Source: Hoplostethus atlanticus
Taxonomy: Eukaryota; Chordata; Actinopteri; Trachichthyiformes; Trachichthyidae
DNA length: 64,000 bases
Reading direction: 5' to 3'
Assembly: GCA_034670405.1 (NCBI GenBank)
Contig: JAXDDX010000062.1
Coordinates: 1,364,001-1,428,000, forward strand
Shown here in pieces: positions 10,484 through 54,690 of this stretch. The number at the start of each line of letters is the position of its first letter. The first letter of the stretch is position 1. The notes below the pieces were generated by a model. The model ran no database searches. It saw only the letters and a program-made list of their open reading frames with translations, and was not told where the DNA came from. A program made the translations under genes and the position numbers.

Positions 10484-10682
10484 TCAGCCCCATGTTCCCT
10501 CAGCCCTATGTCCCCTCAGCCCTATGTTCCCTCAGCCCCATGTTCCCTCAGCCCTATGTCCCCTCAGCCCTATGTTCCCTCAGCCCTATGTCCCCTCAGC
10601 CCTATGTTCCCTCAGCCCTATGTCCCCTCAGCCCCATGTTCCCTCAGCCCTATGTCCCCTCAGCCCTATGTCCCCTCAGCAT
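10484..10682 (+). repeat. 16 bp minisatellite, about 12 units
   Basis: Head-to-tail copies of CCCTCAGCCCTATGTC, with C/T variants at the last base and TAT/CAT variants inside. It lies just downstream of the HIPK-like stop codon, probably in its 3' UTR. Because 16 is not a multiple of three, all three frames on each strand stay open, giving spurious proline-rich reading frames. Confidence 0.92.
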
Positions 10683-12708: not shown

Positions 12709-16301
<3,593 letters not shown>

Positions 16302-18254: not shown

Positions 18255-19705
18255 TCAGCAGTTGACGCAGCTCCAGCCCCTCGCCCCGTCCTCCCCACCC
18301 CCGCCCTCTCTCAGGGTGATGGGTGACCCCCCGGGTGGCTGGCTCAACGCCAGGGGCTTCTGAGACTTCAGCTTGTGGGCCACCGTCATGAAAATGGCCT
18401 CCACGTGGTCGCTGTTCCCGCGCCCGTAACCGTCGTCGCCCTGGTTAGTGGGGCTCTTGGCCGACGTCTCAAACAGGGGCATGGAGTGGGCGTCGGCGAA
18501 CTGCTGCGCCACGTCCGTGCCCACTTGGACCGAGTCCTGGAGGTCGCACTTGTTGCCGACTAGGATCCGCGGTACCTCGGTGCCCAGGGCGTGCTGCTTG
18601 CACTCCTCGATCCAAGCCGGAAGGCTGCGAAAGCTAGCGGCGCTGGTAACATCATAGACAAAGACAACGGCGTGCACGTTGCGGTAGTAGTGCTGCACCA
18701 TGGACTTCCTGAAGCGCTCCTGGCCTGCAGTGTCCCACAGCTGGATCTGGGGGTGGAGAGAGAGAGACAGTGTGGGAATGGCTCTACTGTGGCAAGACAA
18801 TCAGTAGTGCCAATCGACCAGCTTAACCCTCATACCCATATTTAATTCAAAGCTTACCATACATCAGTCATGGCAAACTCCTGCATTTCCCAGAATGCCA
18901 CTCAACAACCCCAGACAAGGGGCGTAAACATGTTGCTTTCATAGTTGGGCATATGGGCTCATAAATATAGCTAGCTAGCCAACTAGTTTGTGAATATTGA
19001 GGTGTGTCTATGATTGAGACCACGCCCCTTACACAAAACGTCTTGTGGCTGCATTGCACTATGGTCTATTGAGTCTACTGTTGGAGGAGAAATTGGTATC
19101 TCTCCTCTTCTACTAAGATTTCTCCCTGTATGATTGTTCAAAGTACTGATGTTTTAGATCACTTTAGACACTGCTCGTTACCGCTCTGTTTTGGTGGAAG
19201 AAGACTGTGGGAATATAAAGTTATATGGGTTACAAAGCTGCTTGGCGGACTATATGAATGACGAAATTAGCAGTGGAACCTAATGAATCAGACAAAACCT
19301 TGAGTCAGATTCTACCAGGTTACCTTTGCCAATAAGCGAGGCAATATTAATGTATCAGTTTGACGTGACTCCATATAACAGAGAGGTGCTGTCGGTAGTG
19401 AGGTCGGTGTTTTATATGAGACTAGCCCCAAAGGTTGCTCCAGGAACCGTTACTACATTACCCCCGGCAGTGCACACCTTGATTTTCTCGCCGTCGATCT
19501 CGACCAGCCTCTCCCTGAAGTCCACCCCGATCGTGGCCTCGGTCTTCTCGGGGAACTTGCCGGCACAGAAGCGGTAGGTGAGACAGGTCTTCCCGACGCC
19601 AGAGTCCCCGATCACGATGATCTTGAAAATGCGGGTCCTCGGTGGCGGAAGAATCGAGCTCGTTAGCGAGCTGGAGAAGTCAACCGGGGGCTCCACCTCC
19701 GCCAT
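18255..19705 (-). CDS. rab33b: Rab GTPase, RAB33B-like
   Basis: Small GTPase of the medial Golgi that also acts in autophagosome formation with ATG16L1 (known for the family). Two coding exons: 19705-19478 and 18746-18255, joined at [11 protein letters not shown]-motifs: P-loop GDSGVGKT, switch I TIGVDF, WDTAGQE, NKCD and [28 protein letters not shown] and WIEECKQH match RAB33B better than RAB33A. The start MAEVEPP lies directly before the divergent N-terminus and the conserved [11 protein letters not shown]. Oddities: an insertion of about ten residues ([11 protein letters not shown]) after ETSAK, a glycine-rich hypervariable tail, and a C-terminus SCVNC. That is a C-x-x-C spacing, where the human protein as I recall it ends in a CxC prenylation motif. 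It is convergent with the four-TM gene and next to malate synthase. Confidence 0.93.
18868..19150 (+). repeat. Dispersed repeat family A, copy in rab33b intron
   Basis: Shares with 40240-40470 the blocks CATAAATATAGCTAG/TATAAATATAGCT, CCACGCCCCTTAC, TCTATTGAGTCTACTG, GGAGAAATTGGTATC and ATTTCTCCCTGTATGATTGT, in the same order and orientation. Confidence 0.75.
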
Positions 19706-19709
19706 ATCA

Positions 19710-21551
19710 ACCCGGCACGGTTGGTTAACGTCACCAAGGGAAGCCTTCAGCAGCTAGCACCGCACTAGTAGTAGTACCGCTGTTGTGGTGCGGAGGGAGC
19801 CTGAAATAAAGCTTTGAAGACGGACAACTGCTGCCCTTTGTCAGAATTCAATGACATTTGTAAATATATATATATCTATGTTCATGCAGTCTCAATATTC
19901 ATAACTTTATCGCTAACGCCAGTGCTTAAATCATACTTGATTACTCCCTGTCCTCAGGCTCTGAAGCCACGTACAATGTTGTCAAAGAAGTCACTTCTCG
20001 CGAGACAACGGCGAAACCCTACCCACATGCCTTATGCTGCATTCAAGCGCAATGGGAAAGGTGGCATTGTGGAACATAAAAGAAAATACTGTTCACCTCA
20101 GGTTTCAGCTAGTAAATACTACTTGGGAACTTGGGGTTTGGCAGTGGACCCTAATTTCTCTGACTTCCCGATTTCTGTCATCAGCAATAAGGAAATAGCT
20201 GTAGCTACGTTTCAGGAATAATATATTAATTTAATTCAAAACGGTTATTCCCATACAACATGAACGCGTGTTACCAATGAATGTCAAGGCCATACTGCAA
20301 TACATTTTTGTAATTTTCAATTTTCATGATGATAGATAGATAGATAATGCTATAGGACATCAACATTTGGGTACAGTAGGAAATAAGAAACTGAAACACC
20401 TGCTTTTCATCTGAATTCTACTTGACAAAAAATGTAACAATGATCTATATATACAGGCTGTACTTTAAACCCCAAATCCAAAACAAACATTTTCCTTGTC
20501 ATACAGTGACCACAGAGAGCCCGCAACCAAAGTCCACATCTATTAGGCGAACAGAGACCTGTTACCAGCATGTCTGTGAGTATTCCCGTATTAGACTTTA
20601 TTTATCAGTCAAATAGCATTAACTGATTTTGTGTTGTGTACTATAAAGACTGTAACACTAGTATAGACAAATGAGAAGAAAGGAGGTGGGAATGCACAAA
20701 GGCCTTCAAATCTGTACAACATGCACCAGAAACCGGTCGAAATGTACTGTGTTGTAGGGTTAGACTGATATATTGGTATGGGGTCGATATTGGCCTTTTC
20801 CACCCTGATGAGGAGAAAAGTCTGGCAACTGTGTTGTTTTGTTTTTTGGAAATTATTTGGGCATGGAAGTTGTTGAATAAATTCAGATCTAGACAGAAGT
20901 CTTTCAATCATGAATTACATGAGCAACATTTATTAACACAGAATACAATACAATACAATACTATACTATACTGAGCTCAGGAGAGATACACACACATGGG
21001 TATGGTATGCGGATCTCTGTCAGAGAAGCCTCTGAACAGAGATTATAAAGCTAAGGAAAACAAAGAAAGGGGGGTAGCTTCTAACACACTAACACAGTAG
21101 TTTCTAAACAAGGGGGCTACTTCTACAAGGGGGGTTGCCTCTACACATCTACAAGGTCGTTCTAATAGTTTGGTCTGAACAATGTGTGCTGTGTCAGGAC
21201 GTTCTGGGCAAAGGCTCTCCGGTGCCTCCTAGAGGGACCGGCCTTCTAGTATGGTTTATACGAATCCCAACCTTTGGCCTACAGGGCCCTAAGTCGGTTG
21301 ACGTCAAACAGAACGCCCTCACACACGCATACCTAAAGCTCCTAGACGCTAGACTAAGGATGCAGAGTCAGCACAAAGATACAGAATAGACACATGATAC
21401 ATAAATTCTTCCACAGAAGTGGTCAGAATTAAACAGAATAAAATAAAAAAAGAATTCAATTTTGGCAGCTTCCATCCCAGAATATCATTGGCCTTCAAGA
21501 ATCCACGTCAGATGAACCATAATGTGTTGATCCAATCTTTGTGGCCTTCAG
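19710..21551. other. Spacer between rab33b and malate synthase
   Basis: Divergent gene pair. Promoters for both, and an upstream non-coding exon of malate synthase, must lie here, because the first coding exon of malate synthase begins at an acceptor (CCTTCAG ending at 21551). I could not locate the promoter or that exon. A 135-codon open frame at 19814-20221 shows no family resemblance or splice support. Confidence 0.4.
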
Positions 21552-21563
21552 GGCCCAGTAGGC

Positions 21564-24500
21564 ATGGAGCTGTCTCCCTCCCCTCCACGCCTGGAAGCAG
21601 AGTATGGGACGCTCTTCACCACCGACTCCCTGCTCTTCCTCCATGAGCTGATCTCCAAGTTCGACGAGGAGGTTGATCAGGTAGGACGACTGTGTGCTTT
21701 TCTCGTTAATGAATTGATGCCTCCTGTTTTGTTCACCAAGAGCGCAGGAGGGCATATGCTGATTAGACGATACTACCGGTCACCCGAGGAGCACATCTTT
21801 GTATAGTAAGGGACATTGTGAATAGAGTTGGCCCAATATATCGGTTTGCCGATATCAGCCTAAAATATTGGATATCGACCAGTCAAGTCATCCACGTCCG
21901 ATATGATGGCCCAGAGTTTCTCCCCATCCTTCATTAAAAAGCTGTTAAAATAAATTTGTAAAATAATTGCATTTGTCTGGGTTTCAGTGGTGAGTATTAA
22001 TGTTTCGTTATGGTCCAATTGTTATTTCAGAGGCTATCAGCAGCTTCAATACAAATTTGTATCAGACTTCAAAAACTCATAGCAGTGCAACCGTAAATGT
22101 GACCGCGCAGGATGTGTTTCTTGAACATCTCGACAACTTTGGCAAGGACTTGACCAATGCTCCTTATTGCATTGCATCTCCGCTCTACCAAGGTCCTACG
22201 GTTGAGGGTGTCCAGAAAGGCCCAGTTGGACTTATCAGGTGACCTGCCTGGCTTTCTAGAGGCCACCACCCATGTCAGAAGGGATCCAGCCTGGAAGGTG
22301 CTCCCCGTTCCCCCAAGGCTCCAGAGGAGGCATGTGGATATTGGGGATTTGGCTCCCTCCGATGCTCAGCGTCTCATCCAAGCTCTCCAATCCCCAGCGC
22401 AGGGCATACAGGTATCATGTAGGCGTGGCCTCATGAGTCCAGCTCACGTTTTAAAAAATAAACAGAATGGTTAAGTTCTGTGCTGTTTTTGACCGGGAAC
22501 CCATCATTTCATCAGTGATACATCTGATTGATTTGATCGATTTTGTGTTTAGATAATGTCAGCTCGTAAGCTAGCTAACCATGGTATCTGGCAGTGTTGT
22601 AGTTGGGTCGCCAAACCTCAAGTTCAAGTCAAGTCCCACATCCTCAATGTTCAAGTCTGAGTAAGTTTGAGTTCACGTAATCCTCGCTGAACGAAATTAT
22701 AAGGAACATATACAAATTCACACCTGTCACATCACATTGGGGTTTAGTTATAATGGTCATAAAACAAGCAAATTTGAAAATGATAACGTCAAACCCTAAC
22801 CCTAAATTTAGGGTAATGCTGAAAATATGTGTAGCCTGTGTCTAAGGTGTTTGAGTCCCAAGTTCAAGTCCTCAGTACACCAGTCTGAGTCCAAGTCAGA
22901 GACATTCAAGTCCTAGTCGAGTCACGAGTCAGCAAAATTGGAACTCTTCCCTAAACTCACCATCCCTATACTCACCTTGTTGTAAACACAGATGACTTGC
23001 ACACTAGCTAAGTAGAGTAGCTAGTACAAGCTAGCATTAGTGTTAGCTAGCATGTTAACATTAACATTGGTTACTTACTAAATTAACCTGCTGGCTATGT
23101 AGCTAACAGTTTCTTGACTCTTGACTCTCAAGATCCAACTCAGAGTGTTTTGGAGTAGAGACCAGGGCTAAAGACAAGACAGTTTACTGAGTCACAGTAA
23201 CCTATATTTGGAAACAAATCTACCATATCAGACTGTTCAGTTTTCATTTATTTTTTTCTATCCATTCAGATTTGTCTCTACAACTATAACTCTCTCTTTG
23301 GTTTTGGCAGATTGACTTTGATGATGGGAACTGCCCTACTTACCACAATCAGATCAAAGGCATTCATAATGTGTACAAAGCTGTGCACAACCAATTTCCC
23401 AGTAAGTTAATCACTTTAAAATGAATAATAATCACACTGTTACAAATACAGTACTGGATCAGAATGAAACTCATACTGCCCGTAGTACGATGTACGTCAC
23501 CCATCATCCACCTCGCTCTTGTTTTAACAGACGTCCCGCCCATATCTCAGGCTCCTGTGCTGATGCTTCGTCCCCGAGCCTGGAACATGGTGGAGCACAA
23601 CATGATGGTACTATAGCATCATCTTTATATGAACTCACTTTCAGTTTATTCAGATGAATTCATTTATTCAATATGGAATTAAGCAAAAAAATGTTGAATG
23701 GAAATTGAACCGACACCAAGTGGTATGAGATTAGTGGAGGGGTGTCAGGAATACCTTTGTAATTCAGAATTTTTAAAATCATTTTTGGTCTCATTATCTG
23801 TCTGCTAACGCGGCTCCATTCCTCAGGTGGAAGGGAAGGAGGTTCCTGGACCTCTTTTCGATTTTGGGCTCCTCATGTTCCACTGTGGAAGGACGCTATT
23901 TGAAAAGAAGAGTGGACCGTTTATCTACCTGTCTAAAGTACTGTAACACACACACACACAAATGATTTGTGCAATGTCATTCCACTTGTCTCTCGCTCTA
24001 ACGAATCTCCTTCATGCCCTGCAGGTGGAGAGTTTCATGGAGGCCAGGCTATGGAACAAGATATTTGTCTGGACGCAACAGAAGGTTTGCACATGTGCCC
24101 TTGCACCTTTCCTGTACATATGCACATATGCTATGGTTTGATCATGTGAAGAGCGTCTGGCCTTCTGTACACCTGGTAATGGTGAATATGATGCACATTT
24201 TGCACATCACATATACAGGTTGTAATTTCATACACTGTTCCTCTTATATTCTCATTTCTCATTTCAGTATTTCTTATATGTTGCATATACATTGATACTT
24301 ATATAGATTTTTTTTTTTTACGTTATTTTGTGCTGCACATAATTCATATTTTGGTATTTTTTCATATCCTACATGTTTTTCATTTTTTTTTTTTTTTTTT
24401 TTTACTACTGCTACTAGTGCTAGTGTTATTTTGCACACTCTCATAATGCTGTAATCCATTTATTTTTCATGCTTTTTATTCATGAATTTCTACGTAACAT

Positions 24501-25638
24501 GCAGACGTTAAGAAGCTAACCTTTTCGCGTGACAAACAGGTGAAAGTAGCCGCTCCCTGCAATTGTCACATAATCTTTTCATGGTGGAGGAACATCATCT
24601 TCAGATAAGTGTGTGTGTGTGTGTGTCTCTAGCTGGGCCTTCCACTGGGCAGCATCAAGGCTACGGTGCTGATCGAGAACGTTTTGGCAGCGTTTGAGAT
24701 GGAGGAGATTCTCTATGAGCTGCGAGACCATTCGGCGGGACTCAACTGTGGCATCTGGGATTATTCAGCCTCCTTCGTCAATAAATTTGGTGAGCCTTAG
24801 CAGTATGGCTTTCTGCTGCTCATGAAATTCAAATGGACCCTATGTTTTCTTCTAAATCAACTGTAAACCACCCCAAAACACAAGGGTTTATGGGTATAAG
24901 GAGACGGATGTTGACATCTGACAGCCAGCAGTTCCTCATGCTTGGAAAGCCTAGCCTAACAAAATCTCACCAGAATCTCTAACCTGGCAGGATGACAGGT
25001 TACCAAAACTCTGTCCAATAAACAAGCTACATGTGTGTCATGTGACTTCAGTTTACAAACCCTGGTTCACTTGTAATTGAGCAGTGTGAACCTAGACCAA
25101 CCAAATACAAAAAAAGTCAACTTTTCCACCATGGTTCAAACCAAAGAATAAAACAGCAGATGACCACCCTGACCAGAATAAAATTATGAGGGAAACACTA
25201 AAAATGTATTTATAGTTTTGGTCAAATTTAAAGATATTGATTATCAGCACAAAGTATCAGCTATGAGCAGCTTCAATCCCAAACGTATCGGTGTTGCTAG
25301 CCGTCTTATAAAAAACCATGCCATGTCGAACCCTAGCCAGAATACATACATTGTCCTAAGGAGAAGACCTCTTTATGGTCAAGAGGTCGTGTCTTTTTGT
25401 TCCAGGTCACCGAGAAGCCTTCCTGCTGCCCGACCGCAGTAAATACGTCAATATGGAGAAGCGATTTCTCCGCAGCTACATGGACTTGTTGGTTCAGACG
25501 TGTCATCGGCGGGGGGCTCTCGCCACAGGGGGCATGGCTGCCCTGCTGCTGCCCAGGGACCAGCACAGCGCCTCCTACGGGACAGTGCTGGCTATTGTCA
25601 CCAGGCAGGACCGCATTGTTTTGCACACATGCAGGCCC

Positions 25639-25672
<34 letters not shown>

Positions 25673-28600
25673 TTGTATTAAGGTTCCTAACCCCTTTAGC
25701 ACGCGCACTACACAAGTAGTCTTTTTATAGTTCTACTTTGTGTAAAACATTTTTGTTTTTGTCTTTTATCTGTTTCTGTGGTGGGGTTGTTAGTCTGTTT
25801 TATTGTATGAACCTTACTATTTCTTTTTCTACATAATTTGTATCCAGTGCCTTTTATTTTCTCTCTTGTTTTTTTTTGTGCCCGGGAAAAAAACAGGAAA
25901 CATACTAAAAAAAAGAACCTTTAATTAATAATTGTAAATTCAGCGTATATGCTAGATTTATTAATCATGTGTTTCCAAAGCCAATGACACCCTATGGCAC
26001 AATGTAACATGTTTTTTTTGTTTTTTTTAAACATCTTCAATTTAAAATTTTAATTTTCACATATTACATGTTACTGATTATTTAATTGAAATGATATTTG
26101 AACACCTTTTTTCTCCTACCTTTTAGACTGAAGTTGCTGGAGATCAAGGCAGGTGTGGATGGTTTCATGGTGTATGACCTGGACTTGATAGAGCCCATGC
26201 AGAAGGCGAGCTACAATAAACGGTCCACAGACTGATTTTATTTGCTCTATGGCATTGGGTTTACCTTCTCAATTCTCCATTAATACTAATCCGTTGCCTC
26301 TCTCAGCTCTTTCAGCTCCATACTCAAGGTGATAACCAGCTCCACCAGGTTCGAGATGATCTCACCGTGACTCCTGATGACCTGCTGTGCATGCCTTCAG
26401 TCAGTCACTCTTTTGTCCCATGGCAAAACTGCAGTATATACCTTTTTAAAGCTGGAAGTTTCAAAGGTGCTACGCGTAGCAATTTAACATCAGTAGTGCC
26501 ACAGTCTCTACCGGCCTCTACTGTGCCACCGGGTCAGATTTGGCGGGAAATCTTAGATTGCTTTACGCTGTTTTTCCAGTGCTAACAGAGCTAAAGCTAA
26601 AGAGTTTTTGGCAACGGCAGATGGTGGAAGGAGAGAAAGGATGATTCAGAAAAAAAATCACTTCCAACATGTTGATCCTCTTCAGTAAAGACAAAGATGC
26701 CAGGGAGGGGGAGGGGGGACAGGAACAGGGTTTATGGGAAGTGTAGTCTTAATTTGGAGAAACACTAGTAACAATACCACTGGTGTGAGATACAGGCTAC
26801 CAAGCGTCTCCACCGTGGTCTCATTTGTTTATGGTAATTATACCAAGGTATCACAATTCAGTTGGCAATGATTCATTGATGTTTGAAAAAAAATGTTACA
26901 TGTAACATCTTTAAAGAACCAAGCCATGAATGCAGAATTGCGCCCCTTGATGAAACATGATACAAAGTACAAGTACATTTACATAAAAGTGTGTTATTTT
27001 GATTTATGATGGGTTTACTAAATACTGCAAAGTTCTGTCTACAAGTCAAAGTCCTCAAGGAAATATTTGTGATATGCCCAAAATTTAAATGGTCAAATAA
27101 ATTCTGTATTGCAACTTTAATACTCACCATATTTGCCCATTGAATTGATATCAGTAAGATGCTTTTTTGAAACGGGCCCTGACTGTAGTCATCTATATAT
27201 GGTAATACATGTATAAATATGATTATGCTGCATTTGGCTCTGACGGAGTATAATCTCACGTATGTCACTTTTCCTTAGGGAGGAGTCACTCTTCATGGCT
27301 TGAAATATAACATTGCAGTCAGTATCCTCTTTATCGATGCTTGGCTATTGGGTAAGTGCACACTGATTTTCACATGTTATTCTCACGCTGTTGAGTTGGA
27401 CAGAAGTGAGTGAGTGAGGCAGGGTAATATCTAGTTTTGACTTAGTCTGTATTGTTCAGTATCAGATTCACAGCATGCGTTCTTTCCTAGGCAAAGGCCA
27501 TTTTTTCTACAGAGGTCAGGTTGAGGATTCGGCCACGGCAGAGATTTCCAGATCCCAGGTGGGTTGAGTTGACAGTTGGGTTAAATTATATCTCCCTAAA
27601 CACTTCAGTACTAACCAAACGTCCACGACGGACATGAGACATTCATCAAAGCTTTGGCTAAATCTGCCTGATCAAAGCAATCAGGTGATAGTCCCCTTAA
27701 AGCAGACAGCTGGTTAATAGAAACCAGTTGAAAGGTAAATCCACTGGGTCCTTTGTCAAGTGTTACAATGGGCTGCATATCTGTGATCACATTTACACAG
27801 GAACAAGAAATCTTTCAGGTCTCCTTTAAAATCCTATGTTGTAAACCCACACATTTACTACATTATATTAGTTGTGTGTATATCTATATAAACCTTAAGG
27901 GGAAAAACCCCACAAAGATCCATTTCATTCTTTTGCTATGTAAATCCATTGTGTGTGTGTTTTAGGTGTGGCAGTGGATCCGTCATCAGACTCGGCTGGA
28001 GGGCAACAACAGGGTGGTGACCAGGCGACTGGTGGCTGACCTCACCCAGGAGGTCTTGATGGAGGTCAGGACTGTTGGGTAAGGCAACACTCCTCAAGGT
28101 ATATTAAAGGTGGTGAATTTAGCCGTTATTTGATGAGAACATGAACACCAAAATCATCAATCATCTGACCTTTGATTGGTTAACTTCATACCCAATTATT
28201 TACCCACCTGATTTAACTAATACAAGAGGAGGTTCACTTGTGCACCTGCACTAATTCCCTTTAAACCTTTTTACTGCATGAACAGTAAAACATATGAAAT
28301 TTGTAAATATAGATCCTTTATTTCACTTCAGAAAAAGGCTAATTTTGATACAATAAAGAGTGCATCATAAAAACTCAAGATTTCTATAATTGCACAATGG
28401 GTGTACAAATTTTCAATCACGACTGTATGTCAATTTTGGCATATGATTTGTCATGACTCCTGAATGTAGAAGGAAAATGTTCTTTAGCATGATGGTGCAG
28501 AAGGTGACAAACTACTTAAACAAGAACAAGTTAATAGACATATGAATGGTCATGTTGTATTTCTGGCCCGGGTACCACACATTCTCAAACATCGGGTTAA

Positions 28601-30253
28601 AGCCCATTTCCAAGATACGATGGATAACTTTTCTTTAGCAGGGAGGACCAATTGAGAGCTGAGGTCTCTTTTACACTGACTCTGAAATGTAAATATTTGC
28701 AGTCCACAGGTCCACACATAGATATTACAAAGAGACAAACAATAGACCAAGACCAACAATACAAGAGACCAAGGAGAAAAACAAGTGCATCCTTGAGTAA
28801 AGCATCTTCTAAGGATGCATTTCATTCCACTTATGAGGTGCATTTAAAAAAAAAAAAAAAGCTTACCTAATTTAGTGTTCACATGTGGAATATCCAAACT
28901 GATGAACCCCTGTGATCGAGTATGGTGTCCTATCGTTCTGAATTGTAACAATGATGAAATGTAAAACCAAACCATATTTTAAATTTCAACTTCTATCCCC
29001 ACCTTTTGAATTTGAGCCCCACGTATAGTACAGATAGTAAAATTGATATTATTTACGAGATATAATACAAGCTTACGTTTGATCAAGGCATTTTGGATGA
29101 CATTTTTGATGATTGAAATTTGTCAACAGATGGCGGTGATTAACAAATGCCTGCGTCGTTAGCATAATGATGAAAAGTGCTGTTACTGTTTAAAATCATT
29201 TGTGTATAATATGAAAAAGAGAGGCCCTTATATTGAACCCTGTGGAACACCCTTAAAAACTTCCACGGAAATCTGAGTGATGACTATTAGTTATTATTGC
29301 TTTAGATCTTCCAATGAGATTGCTTTAGTGATTTAAGGCAATCAAATACCCAGTAGGCCATGGATGGATAAAATGCCAACTATGACTACAAGAGCACCAT
29401 GCACAAAAAGACTGCTTGCCAAATTGAATGATAACTTAAAACTATAGAAATCATGATACCTCACTAATGTTAAAGGGGAACTGTAACTAGGATTATAGTA
29501 TAACACAAACCCATACAAAGAGCAGATTCAGTAGTTAAGGTAGGATGCAAGGAGAGGCCAATGTTACCGGGTGTGTTTTAAGTTGTTGAGTCTACAGTTT
29601 GGGCTGGTGCTCCCGGGTTATGTGGCCTTTCACAGTATATGGGATACACAAAGGTTAGAATGAAATTTAGAATGATCAGCTGGTATAATAGGAAATGCTA
29701 TCGAGTCCCCCGCTGTTTGATGCTGTCCACAGTAAGAGAAGGGGGTCCATACCATACGTCTGTTATATATTTATAAATTAACAGTCATTTTACATCCAAA
29801 GTAATATGAGTATGGACTCAATACATAAAGCAGTCTTTGACCAAATACTATTAGTTTGCCATGTGATAAACTGACCAGCTAATGACTTGAGGAGCACCAA
29901 AATGCACAATTAGCTCAGAGGGCTGAGTTGTTCTCATGCATCACATAAGTTAGTAGGCCTACTGTTTTCAGGTGGAGATGTTTTGTAATTTTCCATGCAA
30001 AGAATATTCTGTCATCTATCTACACTGTGACGTTACAAGGCCTGATCCTATTTTAAGTTCTTCCCTCTCTCTCTGCTTCAGGGCCGAACAGAGGTTACGG
30101 ACAGCAGCAGATATGTTCCTGGAGGTGGTCCAGAAGAGAGATTTCCCAGAGTTCTTCACCACCTATTTGAACCTCGACCACACTTTTCTCAGTTCCCAGT
30201 ACAACGGGCAGATGGAGGGCCTGGCCAGAGCCATGCACAAACCCAACCTCTAA
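21564..30253 (+). CDS. Malate synthase
   Basis: Condenses acetyl-CoA with glyoxylate to malate, the second dedicated step of the glyoxylate shunt. Fourteen coding exons: 21564-21680, 22193-22411, 23311-23401, 23531-23607, 23827-23937, 24025-24084, 24633-24789, 25406-25604, 26127-26205, 26307-26399, 27279-27351, 27491-27558, 27966-28078 and 30082-30253. They total 1,629 nt (542 aa), close to the bacterial/plant A-type enzyme. Family blocks in order: [99 protein letters not shown] and [18 protein letters not shown]. These include the catalytic arginine and aspartate regions. Exons 8 and 9 appear to end in GC donors (CCAG|GCAGGA and GAAG|GCGAGC). The C-terminus is KPNL, not a classical SKL-type peroxisomal signal. 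The first coding exon starts after an acceptor, so a short upstream coding extension is possible. AATAAA follows at 30285. Confidence 0.93.
22592..22950 (+). repeat. CAAGTC-rich dispersed repeat in malate synthase intron 2
   Basis: Starts near GGCAGTGTTGTAGTTGGGTC and ends near GAGTCACGAGTCAGC, with repeated CAAGTC/GAGTC hexamers at both ends. This looks like a non-autonomous fish DNA element. Ends and target duplication not resolved. Confidence 0.5.
25639..25673 (+). repeat. ATT trinucleotide microsatellite
   Basis: About eleven ATT units in malate synthase intron 8, about 35 bases after the proposed GC donor. Confidence 0.92.
28079..30081 (+). other. Last intron of malate synthase
   Basis: Two-kilobase AT-rich intron. 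I found no second gene or recognisable element in it. Confidence 0.5.
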
Positions 30254-30284
30254 GGCCCAGGCAGATTTTCAGATCCAGCTGAAC

Positions 30285-30290
30285 AATAAA
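30285..30290 (+). terminator. Polyadenylation signal of malate synthase
   Basis: AATAAA 32 bases after the stop codon, giving a very short 3' UTR if used. Confidence 0.7.
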
Positions 30291-31515
30291 CATGGATTCT
30301 ACATAACACACCACATAGCCTCACTTACTGAATACTGAACAGGCAGCCTCTTACAGAATGGGTCCAAATATTTTCTCTCCTTCCTGTATATCTCTATGTG
30401 TCGATATCCATTTAAATAACTAGTTTCAGGAAACAAGTTTTATTCAACTGAGTTTTTATTCAAGACTCCTTGGTGTTAAATAGGAGCAGGTTTGCTGCTG
30501 TGCTGAATCCAGTAGGACTGACAAATGCTTCCTTTAAAAACACAACCAAAACCAGTAGAGGGATTGATCACGAACATTGCATCACAAAGACCAGCAAATT
30601 TGAAAAATGTGTGTGGGGGAAAGGGGGTAACTAAATTTAAACCCTAAAAATAAAAGCCCATTAATAGAAATGCTGCCATCAATATTTGTTTTTATGCAAA
30701 GTTTTTCATGGGACTTATAAGGATGAAACTGAAGAAAAAGGTGCAAAAGGACATTTGTCTGTCATACAGACCAATGCAGCACTGTGGCGTCTACACCCCC
30801 CATCATCATGTTCCTCTCCCTCCCTCCAGTTCATATTTGGACCCGCACACCCTTGTGGCTGGGGCGGGGAACTGCAGGAAGCTGCCAGCTGATTAAACCC
30901 GAGTCCCTACGCCAGTGATTCTCCCTTTTTAAAACGTGCTACCTCTTTTGTGTTTAGCGCACACCAGCTCCCATTCTGAACCACGACAATCCTCCCAACA
31001 CCACCACCATTATTACAATGGTACTGTTTGCAAACATTTGTTTTATTAATTAATTTGTCAGTTTGTAATATATAAATTACCTTTTTAAAAACGTGAGAAG
31101 CAGATGCACCTACAAGAAGGACATGGCGTGAAAACACAGGAGTTATAGAAAACCTAGACTGTGTTTACAGAAGCCGTCTTAGCCAGCCGTCGTCCCACTT
31201 TTCCCACAATCCTCTTTATCCTCCCCATACCATTTACAGAATAGTTGTGGACAGGGCTTTGCTTTGTTTTGAAAAGTAAAATGTTTATTTATTTTTTTTC
31301 TTGTGCCATCTCCTCTCTCATCTCTCTATTTTCCTTTCTTTCCTGTGGTGCTCAGTCCATCCAGATCAGTGCAATGCAGGGGGCGATTCACAGCAGCCAT
31401 AGCCAAGGGTTGGGTTGGGGTTTGGGGGTGGGCAGGAAAGTAGGTGTTGTTGGCAGAGTAAGGCGTCTGGCGGCGTGCTCGCGCCTCCTCCTCTTCCCTA
31501 TCTCCTTCTCCTTGC
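30291..31515. other. Convergent spacer and probable naa15 3' UTR
   Basis: No coding signal. A minus-strand AATAAA at about 31284-31289 would give naa15 a 3' UTR of roughly 230 bases. Confidence 0.5.
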
Positions 31516-48501
<16,986 letters not shown>

Positions 48502-53691: not shown

Positions 53692-53756
53692 TTTTAAACG
53701 TTTACTTGGATTTGGGGTGGCGTAGTGCTGTGGCTCAAATTGGTGTAAAGTAAATG

Positions 53757-53815
53757 CACTATTGTAAGTCACTTTGGATAAAAGCGTCTGCTAAATGACT
53801 GTAATGTAATATAAT
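53757..53815 (+). repeat. Fish SINE/LINE 3' tail
   Basis: GTAAGTCACTTTGGATAAAA and GCGTCTGCTAAATGACTGTAA, the common fish retroposon tail. It is the opposite orientation of the copy at 13576. Confidence 0.8.
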
Positions 53816-54457: not shown

Positions 54458-54530
54458 GTGGAAAAGGAGGGGAATCCCAGAAGGGATGAGGAGACTATGC
54501 CAATTGCCCGCTTCCTCTAGGTCAGATTAG
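54458..54530 (+). repeat. Dispersed repeat family B, copy 2
   Basis: Same order of blocks as 41515-41605, including GAGGGGAATCCCAGAAG and AATTGCCCGCTTCCTC. Confidence 0.75.
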
Positions 54531-54540
54531 CTTCTCTTTG

Positions 54541-54690
54541 GCATTAATCCCCCCTCAGAAAATCCTCCTCCTGCTTCGCTATGTCTTTAATCACCCCTCA
54601 AAAAACTCCTTCTGCTTCTCTGTGGCATTAATCACCCCTCAGAAAAAAATCCTCCTCCTGCTATCTTTGTGGCATTAATCACCCCCCAAA
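54541..54690 (+). repeat. Short tandem repeat of about 40-45 bp units
   Basis: Four imperfect units built around GGCATTAATCACCCCTCAGA and AATCCTCCTCCTGCT. It lies about 160 bp before the mgarp start codon. Confidence 0.75.

Follow-up and report, generated by a model that had tools for sequence, protein, structure and literature searches.

A malate synthase A relative with an altered predicted substrate pocket, possibly acting outside the glyoxylate cycle, in the fish Hoplostethus atlanticus

Introduction

Malate synthase genes have been reported from fish, frog and opossum, together with pseudogene remnants in placental mammals at the same syntenic place, the placental remnant sitting at the position of the opossum gene (Kondrashov et al. 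2006, PMC1630690). Among sequenced animals, isocitrate lyase was found in that study only in nematodes and Cnidaria, and in no vertebrate; that malate synthase should be kept without it in many vertebrates and lost in placentals was posed there as a question, with a new function of the animal enzyme named as one option. Here we describe a malate-synthase-like gene from Hoplostethus atlanticus, located in a stretch of 64,000 nucleotides (nt) of contig JAXDDX010000062.1 (the window) of the 633 Mb genome under study. The gene appears intact and its product retains the catalytic residues of bacterial malate synthase A, while residues of the acetyl-CoA and acceptor pocket are changed. Our preferred reading, which is tentative, is of a working enzyme outside the glyoxylate cycle whose acceptor may have changed.

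Animal malate-synthase-like proteins were called functionally uncharacterised in 2022 (PMC8919083). The zebrafish protein, Mlsl, is described as putatively peroxisomal, with an ARL end that represents a peroxisomal targeting signal (PTS1; PMC8919083). Expression of the zebrafish gene was dysregulated in a glyoxylate-accumulating mutant and rescued by dexamethasone (PMC5191836), and a malate synthase gene was up-regulated in pompano liver after peptide treatment (PMC9108241). In work on toxin resistance in possums, a malate synthase route is raised as a hypothesis only (PMC11839783). The vertebrate genes of PMC1630690 and zebrafish mlsl belong, by their published descriptions, to the same enzyme family as the gene examined here.

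Results

An intact gene of the malate synthase A family

The gene model consists of 14 exons on the plus strand, spanning positions 21564..30253 of the window, which join to 1629 nt, or 542 codons and a stop codon. Its features, in window positions, are as follows.

21564..21680, plus strand: exon 1, first coding exon of the model, with the start codon at 21564
22193..22411, plus strand: exon 2, with L92, A93 and R99 aligned to T95, G96 and M102 of Escherichia coli malate synthase A (MSA)
23311..23401, plus strand: exon 3
23531..23607, plus strand: exon 4, with Arg156, the catalytic Arg
23827..23937, plus strand: exon 5
24025..24084, plus strand: exon 6
24633..24789, plus strand: exon 7, with the Mg ligands Glu240 and Asp268, Trp267 kept, and Ile266 replacing R276 of E. 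coli MSA
25406..25604, plus strand: exon 8, followed by a GC donor
26127..26205, plus strand: exon 9, with the altered pocket loop, followed by a GC donor
26307..26399, plus strand: exon 10
27279..27351, plus strand: exon 11
27491..27558, plus strand: exon 12, with Asp438, the catalytic base
27966..28078, plus strand: exon 13
30082..30253, plus strand: exon 14, with the C-terminus HKPNL and the stop codon at 30251-30253
30285..30290, plus strand: AATAAA, a polyadenylation-signal-like hexamer shortly 3' of the stop codon

Exon phases agree throughout, with no internal stop and no frameshift, and an AG acceptor is present at all introns. The preliminary description of this DNA, which had read an intact 542-residue frame in 14 in-phase exons, was thus borne out.

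Pfam MS_TIM-barrel was matched with an E-value of 5.9e-69 (232.3 bits, cut-off 26.4) and MS_C with 6.8e-21 (75.3 bits, cut-off 23.1); MS_N scored just under its cut-off of 23.5 (7e-5, 22.7 bits). The NCBIfam model TIGR01344 (malate_syn_A) aligned to residues 18-513 with 4.4e-137 and 457.4 bits, short of the equivalog cut-off of 594.5; this is an equivalog model for naming bacterial and archaeal proteins. In the PDB, 3cux (2.7e-113) and 3cuz, the E. coli enzyme (3.2e-90), were matched. Both distinct sequences are malate synthases, and these similarities are much too strong to be due to chance. At the domain level the protein is a malate synthase A relative, as had been proposed from the letters of the stretch, with the barrel, the C-terminal domain and the catalytic Arg, Glu, Asp and Asp common to it and to bacterial malate synthase A (3cuz, 3cux). 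The accompanying statement that all family blocks are present holds for the catalytic residues; it does not extend to the altered loop described below, to MS_N or to the TIGR01344 cut-off. Peptide-pattern searches gave 8 pattern matches and no close relatives in prokaryote genome contigs, and no matches in viral contigs. Neither these searches nor those of the PDB yielded a malate synthase of vertebrate, plant or fungal origin.

Retained catalytic residues and an altered pocket

For comparison, the best 80 of at least 497 bacterial relatives were used, collected with patterns that avoid the pocket columns. Pairwise identity within this set is 0.51-0.99, and that of the fish protein to its members 0.40-0.45; E. 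coli MSA is 50-59% identical to the set, and the fish protein matches E. coli MSA with 37% identity over the matched stretch. The catalytic Arg156, the Mg ligands Glu240 and Asp268 and the base Asp438 are all kept, in columns that are each 80/80 in the bacteria. We take the E. coli MSA numbers of Arg156, Glu240 and Asp438 to be 166, 250 and 447. That of Asp268, residue 278, was derived from Trp277 as numbered in PMC3832036.

Seven pocket positions were taken from published structures. Six of them, I94, T95, G96, M102, M330 and P369 of E. coli MSA, are given as equivalent acetyl-CoA-site positions in PMC3112382. That paper identifies the adenine-packing Pro in isoforms A, G and H and places a Trp beside the aldehyde carbon of glyoxylate in isoforms G and H. 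The seventh, W365, was assigned in E. coli MSA because the glyoxylate Trp precedes the adenine-packing Pro by four residues in G and H. Five of the seven are changed in the fish protein (T95 to L, G96 to A, M102 to R, W365 to Met358 and P369 to Leu362), each at a position held by 78-80 of the 80 bacterial relatives, and I94 and M330 are kept. Further changes affect H368 (Asp361), A367 (Y) and R276 (Ile266), and the columns of T95, G96, M102, W365, P369, H368, A367 and R276 are each 80/80 in the bacteria and kept in E. coli MSA. The pocket loop as a whole differs from the commonest bacterial residues, G-H-D-G-T-W-V-A-H-P (n = 80 relatives). The equivalent of E. coli MSA Trp277, which likely blocks propionyl-CoA binding (PMC3832036), is kept as Trp267. 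If Trp365, Pro369, His368, Met102 and Arg276 (E. coli numbering) are taken together as a mark of the malate synthase A family, which is our own reading and not a published rule, the fish protein lacks that mark, with M358, L362, D361, R99 and I266 in their place.

Losses of conserved residues are more frequent in the pocket (5 of 7) than in other columns held by at least 78 of 80 relatives (32 of 130; Fisher p = 0.016), and also when the search-pattern columns are left out (5 of 7 against 30 of 120; p = 0.017). Over the 83 columns that are 80/80 in the bacteria and present in both proteins, there are 19 losses in the fish protein and 3 in E. coli MSA; where 79 or more of the 80 bacteria agree, the fish protein loses 31 of 115 columns, one by a gap, and leave-one-out counts among the bacteria reach a maximum loss of 3 of 88 columns. 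These alignments suggest an enrichment of losses in the pocket that is modest.

Several points speak against a working enzyme with an altered acceptor. The residues at T95 and G96 (L92, A93) adjoin a two-residue insertion, where the alignment is uncertain, and without these two positions the counts are 3 of 5 against 30 of 120 (p = 0.11); the case therefore rests more on the identity of the lost residues, Trp and Pro foremost, than on their number. A further 26 losses lie outside the pocket among the 115 columns, as could be expected for a relative of 40-45% identity. E. coli MSA is nearer to the bacterial set and so not a like-for-like control; it and the bacteria therefore show only a firm retention of these columns among true malate synthases A. 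At T95, G96 and M102 there are already differences among isoforms A, G and H (PMC3112382). Contacts of the pyruvate methyl group with a Pro and the acceptor-side Trp may disfavour pyruvate in an archaeal malate synthase, yet a related archaeal enzyme can still use pyruvate (Km 30 mM), and malyl-CoA lyases with the Trp retained act on citramalyl-CoA (PMC3832036). Animal malate synthases were also said to keep the conserved motifs (data not shown there; Kondrashov et al. 2006, PMC1630690). Finally, the change is known from one gene model in one species, with one vertebrate sequence compared. A text search of the literature for the letters of the altered loop gave no match, and in a partial literature search nothing was found on the pocket of vertebrate malate synthase.

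On balance we lean, tentatively, towards an intact enzyme that works outside the glyoxylate cycle and may have an altered acceptor. Asp438 would deprotonate acetyl-CoA, Arg156 would stabilise the enolate, and the enolate would add to a 2-oxo acid bound to Mg, without any glyoxylate cycle being involved. The acyl donor would still be acetyl-CoA, and the acceptor side would be relaxed or changed, so that pyruvate, for example, or some other 2-oxo acid could be used in addition to glyoxylate or in its place. This combination of donor and acceptor is the simplest inference from one sequence, because Trp267 is kept while the glyoxylate-side Trp is replaced by Met358. Nearly as likely is an ordinary malate synthase that clears glyoxylate, such as that released in purine breakdown by way of allantoicase, by turning it into malate, the pocket changes being tolerated drift. 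Retention of the catalytic residues fits such an enzyme well; loss of the adenine-packing Pro and the glyoxylate-side Trp, both 80/80 in bacteria, fits it poorly.

Pathway context in the genome

Exon-by-exon searching of the 633 Mb genome gave no match to isocitrate lyase, whereas searches of the same kind do find exons of malate synthase and of the allantoicase and HpcH/HpaI families. The isocitrate lyase family was matched in 8 of 14 control genomes, all of them prokaryotes. A glyoxylate cycle is therefore unlikely in Hoplostethus atlanticus, and the hint of one in the preliminary description was not upheld. That a full cycle operates in this fish, as the presence of a malate synthase relative might suggest, we regard as scarcely credible given this search result.

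Two allantoicase-family matches were found on contig C129 (48.5 and 39.8 bits), one with a stop inside the aligned stretch; the family was matched in none of the 14 control genomes. These matches count in favour of a plain, glyoxylate-consuming malate synthase, as do the glyoxylate-disposal role proposed for zebrafish Mlsl (PMC8919083) and the dysregulation of its gene in the glyoxylate-accumulating mutant (PMC5191836). The C-terminal tripeptide, PNL (30242-30250), counts against it, in contrast to the PTS1 of the zebrafish protein, and peroxisomal targeting of the Hoplostethus protein may be weak or absent, judging from this ending.

The HpcH/HpaI-family match lies on contig C24 and is CLYBL-like: a 61-residue stretch has its best match in the 5vxc/5vxo chain (9.6e-20). 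Entry 5vxo is human CLYBL according to PMC6689899, a paper that deals with bacterial citramalyl-CoA lyase. CLYBL and the malyl-CoA lyases (CitE-like superfamily) share related TIM-barrel chemistry on acyl-CoA and 2-oxo acids (PMC3832036) but constitute a separate family, with the CLYBL-like gene elsewhere in the genome.

Splice sites, gene ends and possible decay

Of the 13 introns, 11 are of the GT-AG type, and the other two, introns 8 and 9, begin with GC, at 25605 (CAG/gcagga, the slash marking the cut) and 26206 (AAG/gcgagc), in contrast to the animal malate synthase genes examined in PMC1630690, which had GT...AG introns only. The two GC donors agree with the flanking consensus at 5 of 7 and 6 of 7 positions by a simple count, and both have AG preceding the cut. 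Neighbouring GT sites were inspected as replacements and disrupt the frame between exons 8 and 9 and between exons 9 and 10; the GC donors are therefore the simplest model. As a donor control, a subset of the introns of the neighbouring gene NAA15 was placed by script from hand-entered anchors, and 17 of 18 had GT donors; the one GC donor was judged by eye to be misplaced, as a GT donor fits after 'KFTR'.

Exon 9, which carries the W/P loop, sits between the two consecutive GC-AG introns, an arrangement to which no meaning is attached. An alternative exon with the canonical loop was sought over 20000-31500 in six frames with five motif fragments; there were three HDG matches, none of them in family context by eye.

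The GC donors and the lost pocket residues could also mean that the gene is in early decay in this lineage, its splice donors and pocket wearing away while the reading frame is not yet broken; in placentals this gene has become a pseudogene (PMC1630690). We consider this improbable, since 542 codons are read without a stop or frameshift, AG is found at every acceptor, the GC donors are preceded by AG, all four catalytic residues are kept, and GC content at third codon positions (GC3) is 0.66 in the coding exons against 0.40 GC over the gene span.

An additional coding exon, and with it the true start of the gene, may lie further 5': the frame stays open from the first ATG back to 21531, and a CAG resembling a splice acceptor stands before 21552. 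A scan of 19700-21450 for exons of up to about 240 nt gave no ATG-to-GT-donor candidate with at least 5 of 7 consensus matches; a weaker candidate at 20570 (ATG TCT/gtgagt) was spotted by eye only.

Locus and neighbouring genes

The gene lies between two neighbours, given here as the extent of matches to bait sequences.

18318..19660, minus strand: RAB33B, name confirmed by a PDB match of one stretch
31519..48501, minus strand: NAA15, name confirmed by a PDB match of one stretch

The position between rab33b and naa15 given in the preliminary description is accordingly confirmed, and a malate-synthase-like gene is found where an orthologue would be expected. We take RAB33B and NAA15 to be the neighbours in the published vertebrate gene order, as that description also stated. 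It had further proposed the interval as an exact place to look for a mammalian remnant. Remnants at the matching place had been published in 2006 (PMC1630690), so this exact place has already been looked at; the proposal is not new, and the vertebrate malate synthase gene and its placental remnants are already known.

When the genome was searched with the malate-synthase-like protein, all 14 matches fell inside this gene; it is therefore single-copy within the reach of that search. RAB33B and the malate-synthase-like gene are arranged head to head, with about 1.9 kb (19660-21564) from the first RAB33B match to the start codon, which makes a shared promoter region possible. Elsewhere in the window, UnaL2 3' elements of long interspersed nuclear elements (LINEs) score above the Rfam gathering score at 13584-13638 (minus strand) and 53751-53804 (plus strand), and tandem repeats occur at 10484-10680 (12.3 copies of a 16-base unit) and 54530-54685 (3.6 copies of a 41-base unit).

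Discussion

The open frame, exon phases, GC3, GC-donor context, AATAAA hexamer and family matches were all counted in favour of an intact gene. Transcription of orthologues in zebrafish (PMC5191836) and pompano liver (PMC9108241) was counted for the tentatively preferred reading of a working enzyme outside the glyoxylate cycle. A bolder form of that reading holds that the vertebrate 'malate synthase' is not one in function and would condense acetyl-CoA with a larger 2-oxo acid, such as pyruvate. It was considered because the catalytic core is retained and the Trp lining the glyoxylate site is lost; on present sequence evidence it seems rather unlikely. One vertebrate sequence is compatible with a pocket change that is vertebrate-wide, with one that is lineage-specific and with early decay.

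With residues named by the pocket comparison, the matter becomes one of testing substrates directly on a single protein. A larger-acceptor function, if true, would explain both the persistence of the gene without isocitrate lyase and its dispensability in placentals. If the pocket change is common to vertebrates, the name of the gene would be misleading, and its loss in placentals would be the loss of a different reaction.

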